DNA of 42,719 nucleotides from Lentisphaerae bacterium GWF2_49_21. Lineage in GTDB: Bacteria; Verrucomicrobiota; Lentisphaeria; Victivallales; GWF2-50-93. How positions within the stretch are numbered: the first letter of the stretch is position 1; every line of letters starts with the position of its first letter. Below the pieces are notes generated by a model. That model saw only the letters and a list, made by a program, of their open reading frames with translations, did not search any database and was not told the origin of the DNA. The translations under genes and the position numbers were made by a program. The stretch covers positions 1 to 42,719 of the forward strand of contig MHBH01000004.1 of NCBI GenBank assembly GCA_001804805.1. The letters are read 5' to 3'. Below, one piece after another: positions 1,793 to 8,000 of the stretch.

Positions 1793-3808
1793 ATGACTTT
1801 GAAAAAAATCTCCTCAGGACTCTTTGTAACATTTATTTTAATTTCATTTTCCGTCTACGGTCAGGATTCCGCAAACAATCCAAGCGCCACCCCAGGCGGC
1901 AGAACTGTCTCAGCTGCGCAGATTTCAGTGCAGATCACAAAGAAGAACTGGGAGAAGGTCCGGGAATATGGTATTGCCGCGGCAGTGCCGCTGATAGCGT
2001 CGCTCAGGGACGATGACGATGAGATAAGGGCGGTATCGGCTGAAATCCTGGGATCGCTCGGGGACAAACGTGCCGTGGCACCGCTGATCGAATGCCTCAT
2101 GGACAAGGACTGGCATGTCAGGCAGCAGTCCGCAAAGGCGCTTGGAATATTAAAGGACAAGAAGACGATAGATCCTTTGGTCGGATGCCTTAACGACTCT
2201 TCCAGGGATGTACGCCTGGAAGCAGTGGGGGCATTGAAGAGCATTGCCGATGAACGTGCTTTCCATCCCCTTGTAAAATCCCTGAAGGATTCCGACCCTT
2301 CTGTCCGTAGCGAGGCTATCAAGGCCTTGATTATGACGGGAGGTGAGAATTCGGTGGAGCCATTCCTGGAGTATCTGAAGGATCCCAATTCGGAATCGAA
2401 GGTTGAAGTGATCCGTGCGCTTGGAGTTCTTGGAGACAAAAAAGCTGTTGGACAATTGATCTTATTATTGAAGAGCAAGGATAAGACTGTCCGGATGTGG
2501 GCCGCTGTTGTGCTCGGTAGGATTGGCGACAGCAGGGCGGTCGAGCCGTTGAAGGAAGCCTTGAATGATTCGGATCCGAAAGTCAAGTGGAAGGCCGAGG
2601 AGTCCCTCAAGAAACTGAATGTCAATATCAAGCCTGTAGAAACTGCCAAGCCGCAAATTGCCAAAAAACCTGAACCTCCTGCATCTCCTGCGGTTCCCGA
2701 TACGCCCAGGGCCCAGCCGGACGCAAAGCCACAGGAAACTCCTGTGGAAAAAGCTGGGGAGACGGTTGCTGGGAATAAAATTCCGCCATCTGAAGCAAAA
2801 AAGAAAGGAACAGTCCACTGGTGGATAGTTGGTATTGTCGGCATCTTCGCAGGGATATTGATCCTGCTGGGGCTGGTTCGTTTCTTCGCCGGGAAAAAAT
2901 CCCCCGGGGAAATCAAGAAGGAATTGGACAGGCTTGCAGCCCAGATAAGGGAGGTCTGTACCAGGAAGTCCGGTGATTCGATGCAGAATTTTGCACTTAG
3001 CCTGCTGGAGTCGCAGTCAGTCGCCTATATGCTTTTTCCGACGCATGAAGGAACTGCCGAGGAGAAGAGGAAGTGCCTTGCGACGATGAAGGAGACTAAT
3101 AAGAAGGTTTCTGATATCCTAGGGGCTTTCCACAAAGGCGTATTGCTGTTGAACAAGATGTGCTACCTCATCGAGAGAAACTTGGATGTGCTGGCCGATG
3201 CGCTGCACAAGCAACCCGGAGTCTCTGATAAAGGAGTGCTAAGAGGAGGGGAGCTTCCTACGGAGTCATTTCTGTCTTCCGGTGTGAATTTCAAACGGCA
3301 GCTGCAGAATGAAAACGGGATTTATGAGATATACACTGCCAATTCCAAGGACGAGGCCATTGAATTTCTACGGAAGACGACTGTGAAGATGGAGAAGAAA
3401 TATGTCATCGTCGAGACTCCTGTCGGGAATTTCGGCAAGGATCTGATTGCCATCTTCAATGAGGGCAACGGCTCCGTGATTGAATATGGGAAAAGGGAGC
3501 CTCTTCCGCAGCGGTTGAAATCACCGACCCACTGTGTGAAATGCGGATATCCTGTACTGCCTGCCGGATCGGAGATAGACGAGTCTGTGGAGAAGCTCCT
3601 GTTTGAAGAGTCGGCGCCGGCGCAGGGAATCATGGCACTGAAGAAAGAGGGCAACAAATGGCTTATCATGGAGCAGCTGAAGAAGCATGGAGTCGGGCTG
3701 TCCTGCAAAAAATGCCCTACCGCATGGTGTCCGTTCTGTGTTGATCCAAGCACCCCGGACACCTGCGGAATATGCAAAGGCGAAATGACCATATGCAGGG
3801 GAAAATGA
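1793..3808 (+). CDS. Membrane HEAT-repeat protein with C-terminal CxxC zinc knuckles
   Basis: The 671-residue protein starts with a signal peptide (hydrophobic to about residue 22, VYGQDS cleavage region). About seven HEAT-like repeats of 31 residues follow (about 60-280), with recurring units such as DKRAVAPLIECL and VRQQSAKALG. A Pro/Lys/Ala-rich linker (285-338) leads to one transmembrane helix (about 342-366). The C-terminal half is helical, and the last 90 residues carry CVKCG, CKKC, WCPFC and CGIC pairs that look like zinc knuckles. Predicted topology: HEAT domain in the periplasm, zinc region in the cytoplasm. I know no named family with this arrangement. The FHA/pseudokinase gene follows after about 70 bp and probably shares its transcript. 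The ATG is preceded only by a weak CGGGG. Confidence 0.75.
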   Translation: MTLKKISSGLFVTFILISFSVYGQDSANNPSATPGGRTVSAAQISVQITKKNWEKVREYGIAAAVPLIASLRDDDDEIRAVSAEILGSLGDKRAVAPLIECLMDKDWHVRQQSAKALGILKDKKTIDPLVGCLNDSSRDVRLEAVGALKSIADERAFHPLVKSLKDSDPSVRSEAIKALIMTGGENSVEPFLEYLKDPNSESKVEVIRALGVLGDKKAVGQLILLLKSKDKTVRMWAAVVLGRIGDSRAVEPLKEALNDSDPKVKWKAEESLKKLNVNIKPVETAKPQIAKKPEPPASPAVPDTPRAQPDAKPQETPVEKAGETVAGNKIPPSEAKKKGTVHWWIVGIVGIFAGILILLGLVRFFAGKKSPGEIKKELDRLAAQIREVCTRKSGDSMQNFALSLLESQSVAYMLFPTHEGTAEEKRKCLATMKETNKKVSDILGAFHKGVLLLNKMCYLIERNLDVLADALHKQPGVSDKGVLRGGELPTESFLSSGVNFKRQLQNENGIYEIYTANSKDEAIEFLRKTTVKMEKKYVIVETPVGNFGKDLIAIFNEGNGSVIEYGKREPLPQRLKSPTHCVKCGYPVLPAGSEIDESVEKLLFEESAPAQGIMALKKEGNKWLIMEQLKKHGVGLSCKKCPTAWCPFCVDPSTPDTCGICKGEMTICRGK

Positions 3809-3880
3809 TCCTGAAGAAATAAAAGGCCGACAAATGCGGGAGATGTCCATGCCATACATGACTTGTAGATGGAGAGCATA

Positions 3881-6091
3881 ATGCCTGCGAGCGTAACACT
3901 GAAAGCCATTGAAGGCCCCTTGAAGGGAAGGGAGTTCTCCTACAGCAGGAAGACGACCATTATTGCGGGAAGCAGTGCGGAGTGCGGGCTTAAGATTCCT
4001 GCTCCGGCCCCCAGGCACCTCTGTCTTATCAAGGTATATCCTCCGGAGCTGATGATTGAAGGCCCGGATGACCTTAAGCTGATATTCGTCAACGGGCAGA
4101 ACATACGTAGGCTGAAGGATCGCAAGACCCCGCACGAGGATGAGGATTCGGACAGGAATGGATATGAACTGAAGAACGGTGATGAGATCAAGCTCGGGAA
4201 TTCGGTGTTCAAGATTGAAACTACGGCAGCTGAGCCGAAAGATGAACTGCTGCTCAAGGTGATAAAAGTCCAGCAGGCAAGGGTCGACGAGGAGGAAGCT
4301 TCAGGGATAAAAGGGTATGAAACCTTGAAGAACATCGGCAAAGGCAGCAGAGGAACGGTATTCCTCGCCAAAGACTCCGCAGGAGAACTGGTGGCCCTGA
4401 AAATCATGAATTCTGTGATTGCTTCAAATTCCAAGCGTCTTGCGGATTTCGAGCGCAAGGTCAGATTCTCAAAAGGGTTGAAACATAAGAACATCATCCG
4501 ATTTCATGAGGGCGGATATTCAAGCGGGAAATATTACCTGGTTCATGAATACTGCGATGGAGGGACTGTCGGCCAGCTTATGGCTTCAAGGGGTGGGGCT
4601 TTGGGATTGAGCGAGGCCTTGGGAATAATGTTCCAGGTTTTGGACGGTCTTGATTACATGCATAATGCGGAGCTGCCGTGTACGCTTCTGCTTCCCGACG
4701 GATCAAGGCGCTACCGCAGGGGGCTCCTGCATAGGAGCGTCTGCCCGCATAATATTTTCCTTTCAGGACAGGGTGCGGCGTCAGTTGTAAAGATTGGAGG
4801 CTTTGACATAGCGACACCGATTGAGACTTCCGAAGATGATCTGACCGGTGATATTGCAGGGAACATCTGCTTCATGACGAGAAAAATATTCGTCGATTAT
4901 GATGTGCACAGGGCTGAGTATGATGTCTGGGCTGCAGCAGCGACGCTCTACAACATGCTTACTGGAAAATATCCTCGTGATTTTCCGGACAACTGCCAGG
5001 AGCTCTGGCAGGCAGTCCTCCGCAATCATCCGGTTCCCATCAGGGAGAGGAATCCCGAGATTCCCAGGAAAATAGCCGACGTGATTGATGAGACGCTTGT
5101 TGAAGAGCCCCAGATGAAATACAAGAGCGCCTTGGAATTCAAGAATGCCCTTCAAGCGGCGTTGGCTTCCTCGGGAGAAATCATGCCAGCTGGTTTTATT
5201 GATCCTGGCCAGACCGTTCCGGTCGGACACTTCACCCCCACTGAATTCCATATAGGCGATATACTTCTTGACCGATATGAAATAAAGGGGCTCATTGGTG
5301 AAGACGGGATTCTGACAACGTTCAGGGCCTTTGACATAAAGATGAATATTGAAGTCGCCCTGCACAAGTGGAATATTTTTTCAGTGGAGGAGCTTGATTT
5401 CGCAGTGCGGAATTCGCAGATCTGGGAAAAACTTCCCGAATGCTGGAACATAATCCGATGTTTGAAGGTGCTGACCATACAGGGGGTTCCGTGCATAATT
5501 ACAGGAATTCCTGAGGGGAGCCCGCTGTCCGTCTGGATCCGGAAGACCCCTGGGAGGACTCTGGAAAAACTGCTCAATATTTCCATCCAGGCTTTGACAG
5601 GTCTGGATTCGATACATAAGAAAGGAATAGTCCATCAGAATATAAAGCCCAACATAATGTTCCTCACGGATTTTGAAGTGATTGTAATTTCAGGTTTTGA
5701 ATTGGCGGAAATATGCCCGCCGGGGATGGATACGGTGGAAGGAGGATGTTTCACTCCGAGCTACTGTTCTCCAGAGCAGGCGAAGAATGAAAAGATAAGT
5801 TCAAAAACTGATATCTGGGGCTGGGCCGTGACCGTGCTCGAAATGTTTACCGGCAAGGCCAGCTGGGCGTCAGGCCAGATTGTAGGTGACATTTTCGATG
5901 ACGTCTTAAACTCCACAAATGGCGATGGAAGCGTTCAGATGCCGGAAAAACTAAGGAAAATCATTAAGAGATGCCTGAAGAGGAATTCGGCAGAGCGACC
6001 TGCCGCCTCCGAACTCCTGTTCGAACTCAAGGAGCTTTACAAGGATATCACAGGAAAAGATCCTGGCTCCAATATTTTCAGGAATCTTTAA
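3881..6091 (+). CDS. FHA domain plus tandem Ser/Thr pseudokinase protein
   Basis: About 736 residues without signal peptide or membrane segment. An FHA-like domain (about 1-125) keeps the strand pattern and VNGQN but has IAGSS where IGRS is expected and APRH for SxxH, so the usual phosphothreonine contacts appear lost. Kinase-like domain 1 (about 147-420) has GKGSRG and VALKI, but HRD is HRS, DFG is GFD and APE is replaced. Domain 2 (about 466-725) lacks a glycine loop, has VALHKW for VAIK, HQN for HRD and GFE for DFG, yet keeps SPEQ and TDIWGW. Both domains therefore look catalytically dead. Start: ATG 3881 has GGAG 6 bp upstream; ATG 3869 is in frame but has no SD. It likely acts with the HEAT membrane protein upstream (inference). 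Confidence 0.8.
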   Translation: MPASVTLKAIEGPLKGREFSYSRKTTIIAGSSAECGLKIPAPAPRHLCLIKVYPPELMIEGPDDLKLIFVNGQNIRRLKDRKTPHEDEDSDRNGYELKNGDEIKLGNSVFKIETTAAEPKDELLLKVIKVQQARVDEEEASGIKGYETLKNIGKGSRGTVFLAKDSAGELVALKIMNSVIASNSKRLADFERKVRFSKGLKHKNIIRFHEGGYSSGKYYLVHEYCDGGTVGQLMASRGGALGLSEALGIMFQVLDGLDYMHNAELPCTLLLPDGSRRYRRGLLHRSVCPHNIFLSGQGAASVVKIGGFDIATPIETSEDDLTGDIAGNICFMTRKIFVDYDVHRAEYDVWAAAATLYNMLTGKYPRDFPDNCQELWQAVLRNHPVPIRERNPEIPRKIADVIDETLVEEPQMKYKSALEFKNALQAALASSGEIMPAGFIDPGQTVPVGHFTPTEFHIGDILLDRYEIKGLIGEDGILTTFRAFDIKMNIEVALHKWNIFSVEELDFAVRNSQIWEKLPECWNIIRCLKVLTIQGVPCIITGIPEGSPLSVWIRKTPGRTLEKLLNISIQALTGLDSIHKKGIVHQNIKPNIMFLTDFEVIVISGFELAEICPPGMDTVEGGCFTPSYCSPEQAKNEKISSKTDIWGWAVTVLEMFTGKASWASGQIVGDIFDDVLNSTNGDGSVQMPEKLRKIIKRCLKRNSAERPAASELLFELKELYKDITGKDPGSNIFRNL

Positions 6092-6133: not shown

Positions 6134-7909
6134 TCAGAACTTCACATCTTCGGCCTTCCTGATCTTTTCCCTGACAGTATCGACGTTCACGTCCGGATTC
6201 CAGGTCTCCTCCGCGATCTTCCAGTATTTAAGGGCAGCCGTCCTGTCGCCGAGGGCGTTGTAGATGTCGCCTGCATGGTCGGATATTACGCCGTCGGGTG
6301 AGTCCTCCTGGGCCTTTAGGGATTTTTCTATGTATTTTTTTGCAGACTGGATGTCCCCCTTCCTGTAGAAGACCCACGCCAGACTGTCGAGGAACGCCGG
6401 ATTCTGGTTTTCCGCGTCGACGGCGATACGGATCAGCTTTTCAGCATAGTCAAGATCCTTGTTCTTGTCCGCGAGAAGATATCCGAGGAAATTGACCGTC
6501 TCGGGATCTTCTGGATTCTTCTCCACTTCCTTCTTCAATATTTCAACGGTCTTTTCGAACATACCAGCCTTGTCGCAGAATGCCGCGAATGTCAGGTAGA
6601 AGTCATTTGTCAGATAGTCATCGCGCTTCTGTTCGAGGGCGATTTTTTCGGCCTCCTCCAGCGTCTTCACAGCCTTTTTATATTCCGCCTGCTGCCTGTA
6701 GCAGAGGGCCGCCAGATATTTCGCCTCCGGCATGTCGGTGATCTTGCCCAGCTTGTTCAGCGCCTTGTCATACTTCTTCAGCTCATAATAGCAGATTCCG
6801 AGCTGGTAAAGGGCGATGGGATTGTAATCCGGCTTGAGGAGGAGCAGCCATTCGAACGATTTTGATGCCTCGGTGAAGTTCTTCATCATCAGCGAGGAAT
6901 GTCCAAGCTCATAGTAATAATATGGCTCCGAATTGTTCTTCTGGGCAAGCATCTTCCAGATCCTGTATGCGGTTCCATACCGTCCCCAATCGCTGTATAC
7001 GGCTCCGAGGATCCTGTATAGATACTCGTTGCCGGTGAGTGAGATCAGAGAGTTCAGGATTATCCTTTCGGAGCCTTCATAAAGCTTGTATCTCTTGTTC
7101 AGTTCAAGGATGGGGACTAGTTCAAGTATCGACGGGGTTTTGGCTTTCTTGTCCTCGGGATTGATCATGGAATACCACAGCGTCTCGCATGCTTCGAGGT
7201 TCTGGTCCATCTTCTTCCTGAATCTGCGCTTGGTCCATCCCGAGAAGAATCCGTCCTCGCCCTGGTCGGCCCTGAGCGAGAAGAAGACCGCCGCCGAACG
7301 CCTTGTCTTGAAGTCCTCCGAGAATTCCGTATGGCCCAGAATATTGTCGAAAAGAGACTCGCCTTCATCGAACATCTTCGATTTGCCGTAGATATCCGCC
7401 AGACATGTCACGAGGTTCAGGCAGCTCTTCTTCTTCTCCTTGTCGGTTATCGGGAACTCCAGCGTGCGGAAGGTCTTTTCCAGGAGGGAGGCGGCTTCAG
7501 CGTCCTTTTTCAGGCATATCATCGCCGACGCCACCGATAGATTCAACTCTATCGCTCCGGGATTCTCACTGGCGATCGGACGGAAGTTGTCAATGCACTC
7601 CTGGAACGCCTGGTTCGTGAACCATTCTCTCACAAGCAGGGCGATTGGAAGGCGGGCCTCGGGATTCTTCTGGACGGACTTGATGAAATAATCCTTCGCT
7701 GCAGGGCTCAATTTCTCCTGTTCGAGGAAAGTAAGATAGCCTACTGCGAAATCCGCAAGGGACCTGGCGGCATCATCGGCCTCCTTGGGCAGAAATGAAC
7801 CGGAATCAACTACATCGATCCTTTTCAGGGAATCAGATCCGATGTTGATGTCGGCAAGACAGGAGAGCCCCGCAAAAAGAAAAAAAAGGAATGGAGTCAG
7901 CTTTGTCAT
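6134..7909 (-). CDS. Secreted or lipid-anchored TPR-repeat protein
   Basis: The protein of about 591 residues begins with a signal sequence (MTKLTPFLFFLFAGLSCLAD); the LSCLAD stretch is not a clean lipobox. Tetratricopeptide repeats fill most of the rest, clearest after residue 280 (units such as ALYQLGICYYELKKYDKALN and FLDSLAWVFYRKGDIQSAKK). TPR proteins of this kind are envelope scaffolds; the partner is unknown. I chose ATG 7909, because a further in-frame start at 7930 is TTG and would put seven polar residues before the signal peptide. The ribosome binding site is weak (GGA). The small bS22-like gene lies just upstream on the same strand and may share its promoter. Confidence 0.75.
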   Translation of the reverse strand: MTKLTPFLFFLFAGLSCLADINIGSDSLKRIDVVDSGSFLPKEADDAARSLADFAVGYLTFLEQEKLSPAAKDYFIKSVQKNPEARLPIALLVREWFTNQAFQECIDNFRPIASENPGAIELNLSVASAMICLKKDAEAASLLEKTFRTLEFPITDKEKKKSCLNLVTCLADIYGKSKMFDEGESLFDNILGHTEFSEDFKTRRSAAVFFSLRADQGEDGFFSGWTKRRFRKKMDQNLEACETLWYSMINPEDKKAKTPSILELVPILELNKRYKLYEGSERIILNSLISLTGNEYLYRILGAVYSDWGRYGTAYRIWKMLAQKNNSEPYYYYELGHSSLMMKNFTEASKSFEWLLLLKPDYNPIALYQLGICYYELKKYDKALNKLGKITDMPEAKYLAALCYRQQAEYKKAVKTLEEAEKIALEQKRDDYLTNDFYLTFAAFCDKAGMFEKTVEILKKEVEKNPEDPETVNFLGYLLADKNKDLDYAEKLIRIAVDAENQNPAFLDSLAWVFYRKGDIQSAKKYIEKSLKAQEDSPDGVISDHAGDIYNALGDRTAALKYWKIAEETWNPDVNVDTVREKIRKAEDVKF

Positions 7910-8000
7910 TGTCAAGGTTTTTCCGGACAAAACATACCGTTCCCATATGAAACCGGAGTCTCATATGGGAAAACTTCTGAAGCCGGTCCGCGAACTGAGA

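Follow-up and report, generated by a model that had tools for sequence, protein, structure and literature searches.

A putative tandem pseudokinase with a degenerate FHA domain in a Lentisphaerae bacterium, probably formed by joining two partner kinases

The window analysed here, the whole 42,719-nucleotide stretch of Lentisphaerae bacterium GWF2_49_21, contains a gene for an FHA domain followed by two kinase domains. A sequence-only reading had proposed that every catalytic hallmark of both kinase domains is lost. The question raised by this locus is where such a protein came from and what it might do without catalysis. The function of most bacterial pseudokinases is undefined, although they are common. 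In this case, the ancestry of the protein can be read domain by domain.

Gene layout and the state of the functional motifs

The open reading frame extends from 3869 to 6091 on the forward strand (740 codons without a stop), and the residue numbers of motifs given here follow this 740-residue numbering, counted from 3869. We prefer the ATG at 3881 as the start over 3869 because a Shine-Dalgarno-like sequence, GGAGAG, lies ahead of it and because the resulting protein begins with MPASVTLK, which resembles the MPAKITLK of its nearest relative, L032. The start at 3881 had also been chosen from the sequence before, and these two observations bear it out. L032 is an intact FHA-zinc-ribbon kinase of Lentisphaerae bacterium GWF2_50_93 (genome G001), which belongs to the same genus. 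The coordinates of the gene, its domains and its neighbours are collected in Table 1.

Table 1. Features of the locus, with positions in the window
Feature	Position	Strand	Evidence or remark
HEAT-repeat protein gene, co-directional, upstream	1793..3808	+	ORF, Pfam; conserved in G001, where no FHA gene follows it
Shine-Dalgarno-like GGAGAG	3871..3876	+	sequence; serves the start at 3881
FHA-pseudokinase-pseudokinase gene, 736 aa	3881..6091	+	ORF, Pfam, start signal
Degenerate FHA domain	3881..4231	+	alignment with intact FHA domains (L032, others); model; Rad53 best PDB match; no Pfam FHA
FHA Gly-Arg to Ala-Gly	3965..3970	+	alignment with L032
FHA SRHH to PRHL (Ser and His lost)	4010..4021	+	alignment with L032
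Pseudokinase domain 1 (D1), FHA-zinc-ribbon kinase family	4307..5164	+	Pfam, alignment, tree, model
D1 beta3 Lys of VALK, retained	4400..4402	+	motif alignment, codons
D1 HRD to HRS (residues 288-290)	4730..4738	+	motif alignment, codons
D1 DFG to GFD (residues 311-313)	4799..4807	+	motif alignment, codons
Linker between the kinase domains	5165..5266	+	end IGDILLD resembles the pre-kinase stretch of HQD kinases (alignment)
Pseudokinase domain 2 (D2), HQD (WD40/TPR) kinase family	5267..6064	+	Pfam, alignment, tree, model
D2 beta3 Lys to His499	5363..5365	+	motif alignment, codons
D2 HQD to HQN (residues 589-591)	5633..5641	+	motif alignment, codons
D2 DFG to GFE (residues 609-611)	5693..5701	+	motif alignment, codons
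TPR protein gene, convergent	6134..7930	-	Pfam; directly abuts the HEAT gene in G001

Pfam Pkinase (PF00069) matched both kinase domains, with 192 bits for the whole protein at a cut-off of 31.7, and in a search of the own genome each domain alone exceeded the cut-off (102 and 88 bits). Both domains were predicted to form bilobal kinase folds (model pLDDT of 78 and 83, with kinases as PDB matches), and the model also contained a beta-rich N-terminal domain. Pfam, the FHA alignment and the models thus agree with the tandem kinase plus FHA architecture that had been read from the sequence. The chain ends about 10 residues past the kinase fold of D2, and C-terminal WD40 or TPR repeats are absent.

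A pseudokinase is defined as a kinase domain in which at least one of three catalytic residues is missing (PMC12599244), and by sequence both domains fall under this definition. D1 lacks the Asp residues of HRD and DFG and D2 lacks the beta3 Lys as well as both Asp residues, so that neither has the full set of residues of an active Ser/Thr kinase. The changes reported before, HRS and GFD in D1 and HQN, GFE and a missing beta3 Lys in D2, were all found again in the motif alignment and the codons. Active relatives of D2 read HQD; thus, HQN represents a loss of the Asp only. Additionally, the alpha-C Glu of D1 is replaced by Lys and its catalytic-loop Lys by Cys. In D2, the G-loop reads GEDGIL in place of GxGxxG and is broken with an acidic residue, the alpha-C Glu is lost, and the catalytic-loop Asn is replaced by Ile; the catalytic-loop Lys and SPE are kept. 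The proposal that every hallmark is lost therefore holds, in each domain, for the Asp that acts as base and the Asp that binds metal, but it goes too far for D1, which keeps its GxGxxG loop (GKGSRG), the VALK Lys (K178) and the catalytic-loop Asn. Because L032 is also without the catalytic-loop Lys (HRDISPHN), the loss of this residue in the D1 lineage probably predates the other losses.

The N-terminal 120 residues align over their full length with intact FHA domains, and the N-terminal part of the protein matches the FHA and zinc part of L032 (phmmer 9e-17). The best PDB match of the FHA-kinase model was the Rad53 FHA-kinase. Pfam found no FHA domain in these 120 residues, and an FHA search of the own genome likewise gave no match at C4. 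In the alignment with L032, all five residues of the phosphothreonine site (Gly, Arg, Ser, His and Asn) are changed, and the NGT of L032 reads KLI. The earlier observation that the Arg and Ser that contact phosphothreonine are missing was correct, and Gly, His and Asn can be added to it. Sequence and model point to an FHA fold in which the residues of a phosphothreonine reader are missing. The zinc-ribbon CxxC region between the FHA domain and the kinase is missing as well; such CxxC pairs are also missing in some relatives (for example L033, L037 and L039).

Ancestry of the two domains and a conserved kinase cassette

In a domain tree built without the catalytic columns, D1 had L032 as its sister (99/90) among the FHA-kinases, and D2 grouped with kinase-WD40 and kinase-TPR proteins of the genomes G001, G003 and G004 (100/99). 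A wider tree gave the same placement, with D1 among the FHA-kinases and D2 in the HQD clade, which had an SH-aLRT of 100. Given the long branches (in the first tree, 0.71 for D1 vs 0.26 for L032, and 1.16 for D2), the exact place of D2 inside the HQD clade is unsure, but its clade membership held in both trees. As D1 belongs to the FHA-kinase clade and D2 to the HQD clade, the two domains are not copies of each other, and both trees reject an internal duplication of one kinase domain.

The relatives of both domains are nearly all intact. In the clade of D2 (n=42), 41 members keep the Lys together with the Asp of both HxD and DFG. Both Asp residues are lost in just two of the 78 members of the D1 clade, the window protein and L154 of Trichodesmium erythraeum (HGR, NYG), and these are separate events. 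Within the family, the catalytic Asp has been lost repeatedly: L120, L122, L143 and L154 read HRH, HCH or HGR in place of HRD, with NYG in L154.

Since D1 and D2 come from two different kinase families in which nearly all other members are intact, the sequences indicate that DFG was lost independently in the two domains. The sequence-only reading had called it striking that both changed DFG to Gly-Phe-acid. Our results do not support this view. Both Asp to Gly and Gly to Asp or Glu require one transition at codon position 2, with one-step change weights of 0.29 for Asp to Gly and 0.34 for Gly to Asp or Glu together. Thus, the appearance of the same pattern twice is unremarkable. Gene conversion was rejected because the codons differ (GGC TTT GAC in D1 and GGT TTT GAA in D2). 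The change of the DFG Asp to Gly is also found in L076 of the own genome, in CASK, in VRK3 and in one Pseudomonas DLHK pseudokinase. As had been proposed, the motif, tree and fold evidence points to an origin from phospho-signalling enzymes, with a putative loss of both catalysis and phosphothreonine reading.

The two parent families are frequently found side by side. An alignment-based scan of contigs recovered 80 FHA-kinase loci from GTDB genomes; a contig scan with the single window protein as query gave no match. At least 35 of the 80 loci had a D2-clade kinase within about 7 kb of the FHA-kinase, in six phyla other than that of Lentisphaerae (Actinomycetota 21, Pseudomonadota 7, Cyanobacteriota 3, Nitrospirota 2, Myxococcota 1 and Thermodesulfobacteriota 1). 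The partners were on the same strand in 33 of 36 pairs and were separated by less than 200 bp in 21 pairs, and a PP2C gene was present in about 20 loci. All these counts are lower bounds, as several loci were short and a few were omitted from the tree. The HQD-kinase usually comes first; the order of the fusion, with the FHA-kinase first, occurs in L137 (22-bp gap) and L181. In Lentisphaerae, the FHA-kinase gene L032 of G001 is flanked by an AAA-AAA-M41 protease gene and a PP2C gene, after which come two kinase-WD40 genes and one kinase-TPR gene, and a run in G169, from another family, contains a kinase-TPR, an AAA-AAA-M41, a rhomboid and an FHA-kinase. Examples of FHA-kinase with HQD-kinase (WD40/TPR), PP2C and sometimes AAA-AAA-M41 are L124, L103, L117, L184, L137, L166 and about 30 further loci. 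Genes for double-AAA M41 (FtsH-type) proteases lie beside FHA-kinases at 4931-8482 in L103, which also has a rhomboid gene, and at 5425-8874 in L064. The open-access literature that we searched gave no published account of such a cassette, although one may exist.

Because of the ancestries of D1 and D2, and because the two kinase types are neighbours across phyla and in Lentisphaerae, the window gene is best read as a fusion of both kinases of one conserved cassette, minus the zinc ribbons and the repeats. Fusion of neighbouring genes is a classical sign of joint action, and in this case it would point to a physical FHA-kinase/HQD-kinase pair, with a PP2C gene and at times one for an AAA-M41 protease close by. 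Both dead domains go back to families whose members are nearly all intact, and outside Lentisphaerae these families are genomic neighbours in six further phyla.

Distribution of the gene, and drift or maintenance of its folds

We searched 137 genomes from the order, 198 from the class and a phylum-wide sample of 388. None had a full-length homologue, and the orthologues with the GFD and GFE changes for which a search had been suggested before were thus not found. Orthologues with intact HRD and DFG, which had been named as evidence against the loss of catalysis, were not found there either. It is the nearest relatives that are intact; the losses are thereby polarised, and the proposal is not refuted. 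One scan of viral contigs did not find the window gene, and plasmids matched the FHA-kinase part alone and nothing of full length.

The flanking HEAT and TPR genes are 38 bp apart in G001, with nothing between them. As this site is empty in G001, the window gene is either an insertion in its own lineage or was lost in the G001 lineage. A search for target-site or transposon repeats around the gene gave only short, chance-like repeats. The HEAT protein has a signal-like N-terminus, an internal membrane-like segment (by inspection) and a Cys-rich tail, and is 53% identical to its ortholog in G001. A pairing of the window protein with this HEAT protein, as in STRAD/MO25, was considered and set aside as speculation, since G001 retains the HEAT gene but has no FHA gene beside it, and the HEAT part looks extracytoplasmic (by inspection). 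PADLOC matches (mad6, PD-T4-6 and others) were likewise rejected as a link to defence, because they are general kinase matches common to all kinases tested.

The own genome is 95% complete and has 41 kinase matches. No intact D2-clade member turned up in it at the search threshold, nor did an AAA-AAA-M41 protein or an intact pair of FHA-zinc-ribbon kinase and HQD kinase; the sole close kin of D1 is a 348-residue kinase without FHA. Other degenerate kinases are present. L076 (G000:C17:54500-58000, ORF 1316-2806 minus) is an FHA-pseudokinase of a different clade, with an intact FHA site, HLN and GIG. L029, L078 and L079 are related kinases that form a small pseudokinase family (beta3 Lys to Arg, HRD to HRN, DFG intact), and L081 and L082 have degenerate motifs (HHD/NYF and HQN/EFG) and N-terminal zinc-ribbon-like Cys pairs.

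An orphan gene with long branches, at a site that is empty in a genome of the same genus, could be a relic in early decay, that is, a fused copy that was acquired (horizontally) or relocated, has no function and is drifting, with stops not yet in place. The loss of many invariant activation-segment positions would fit this explanation. We simulated neutral change by mutating L032 with 128 replacements, approximately the excess on the D1 branch, and scoring the products with the family HMM. The score fell from 325 to a mean of 172 bits (maximum 211), with about 5 stops per run, whereas the real D1 scores 234 bits and has no stop. For D2, 150 neutral replacements of a kinase-WD40 gave a mean of 94.5 (maximum 138) vs 137.6 for D2. 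Thus, the data argue against long unconstrained drift: some 120 extra replacements in D1 should have left the stops and the low score of the simulation, and more stops in D2. A shorter drift would fit: about 60 neutral replacements in D1 gave a mean score of 240, and 11 of the 100 runs stayed free of stops. Codon-position GC is similar to that of the neighbouring genes and both folds are well predicted, and these points also speak against a relic. We consider a relic unlikely, but we keep it in view.

Catalytic positions of D1 were kept in 5 of 10 cases vs 40 of 58 for other family-invariant positions (p=0.21). For D2, the numbers were 3 of 11 vs 42 of 69 (p=0.04, a nominal and weak difference). 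We believe that the folds of the tandem pseudokinase have been kept by selection, which is supported, but not proven.

Proposed role and relation to known systems

We have a model for the origin and role of this protein that we hold with somewhat better than even confidence. Sequence, trees and gene order show that the FHA(-zinc-ribbon) Ser/Thr kinase of a cassette was joined to its HQD Ser/Thr partner. Once fused, or at about that time, each kinase domain lost its base Asp and its metal Asp, the FHA domain lost its phosphothreonine site, and the zinc ribbons and repeats were dropped. The product would be a tandem pseudokinase with maintained folds that works without catalysis, its kinase lobes binding another kinase or a client as a scaffold or an allosteric partner. 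The likeliest role would be that of a scaffold. D1 possibly binds nucleotide, as STRAD or CASK does, whereas D2 is probably nucleotide-free, by analogy with VRK3. The role of a ligand sensor, which had also been put forward, is conceivable for D1 alone, which keeps the G-loop and the beta3 Lys. The sensor-like WD40/TPR repeats of the ancestor of D2 are gone.

The same retained residues in D1, together with its catalytic-loop Asn, raise the idea of cryptic catalysis. CASK is active with GFG, and SelO and SidJ perform other chemistry on the kinase fold. D1 might therefore bind nucleotide without the usual metal ligand, or one of the domains might do other chemistry. However, the HRD Asp and the alpha-C Glu are lost in both domains and the catalytic-loop Lys is lost in D1, and we think this explanation very improbable.

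That exactly the two partner kinases are fused, with their kinase folds kept and with chemistry and phosphothreonine reading lost, is also what one would expect of a decoy or antagonist. Such a protein would mimic the FHA-kinase/HQD-kinase complex and titrate the substrates or partners of a cassette, be it the cell's own or one that comes in. This seems rather improbable, as our searches of the own genome gave no intact cassette, the one scan of viral contigs was negative and plasmids had nothing beyond the FHA-kinase part. A broader form of the idea, a maintained dead one-chain mimic of the FHA-kinase/HQD-kinase heterodimer that acts on such complexes as a decoy or an allosteric regulator, is slightly less improbable, though still doubtful. 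If it were true, both kinases of a cross-phylum cassette would act as a physical pair.

The non-catalytic tandem pseudokinase that we favour can be compared with several known systems. L032 and its family resemble the window protein in the N-terminal start, the position of the FHA domain and an insert before the HRD loop, with 44% identity between L032 and the window protein over D1. L032 differs in its intact FHA domain, zinc-ribbon Cys pairs, HRD and DFG, and in having one kinase domain, followed by a PP2C gene. The HQD kinases with WD40/TPR repeats (L065, L054, L044 and the neighbours of FHA-kinases in 35 loci) share the HQ and SPEQ context with D2, and the homology extends nearly to the end of the window protein. 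They have the Lys, HQD (or HRD), DFG and the repeats, whereas D2 has none of these.

Three animal pseudokinases, which are single rather than tandem and have been studied experimentally, resemble the window protein in the states of their motifs, not by kinship. VRK3, which cannot bind nucleotide, is like D2 in its acidic G-loop residue, H-x-N (HGN in VRK3) and G-F-x (GFG). STRAD, with HRS and GLR, shares HRS with D1. CASK, which is active, resembles D1 in keeping the G-loop and Lys and in the change of the DFG Asp to Gly (GFG).

Bacterial pseudokinase families have been described, namely ActPs1-3, GLW, CP1, DYD, DLHK and EssB/YukC (PMC12599244). Like the window protein, they have a bacterial Ser/Thr kinase fold from which catalytic motifs are gone, and EssB has a structural role (PMC12599244). 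The text of this review names no tandem pseudokinase, FHA fusion or Lentisphaerae example (PMC12599244). Kaur et al. 2020 (PMC7159879) also reported that kinase domains, most of them inactive, serve as effectors of ternary conflict systems. In MviN-FhaA of Mycobacterium tuberculosis, a pseudokinase and an FHA domain act in one pathway, as they are combined in the window protein. However, MviN and FhaA are two proteins and the FHA domain reads the phosphorylated tail of the pseudokinase, whereas the window protein is one chain in which the FHA site is gone. Thus, bacterial pseudokinases were already known; what appears to be new, judged from the sequence, is a tandem, FHA-fused form derived from two cassette kinases.
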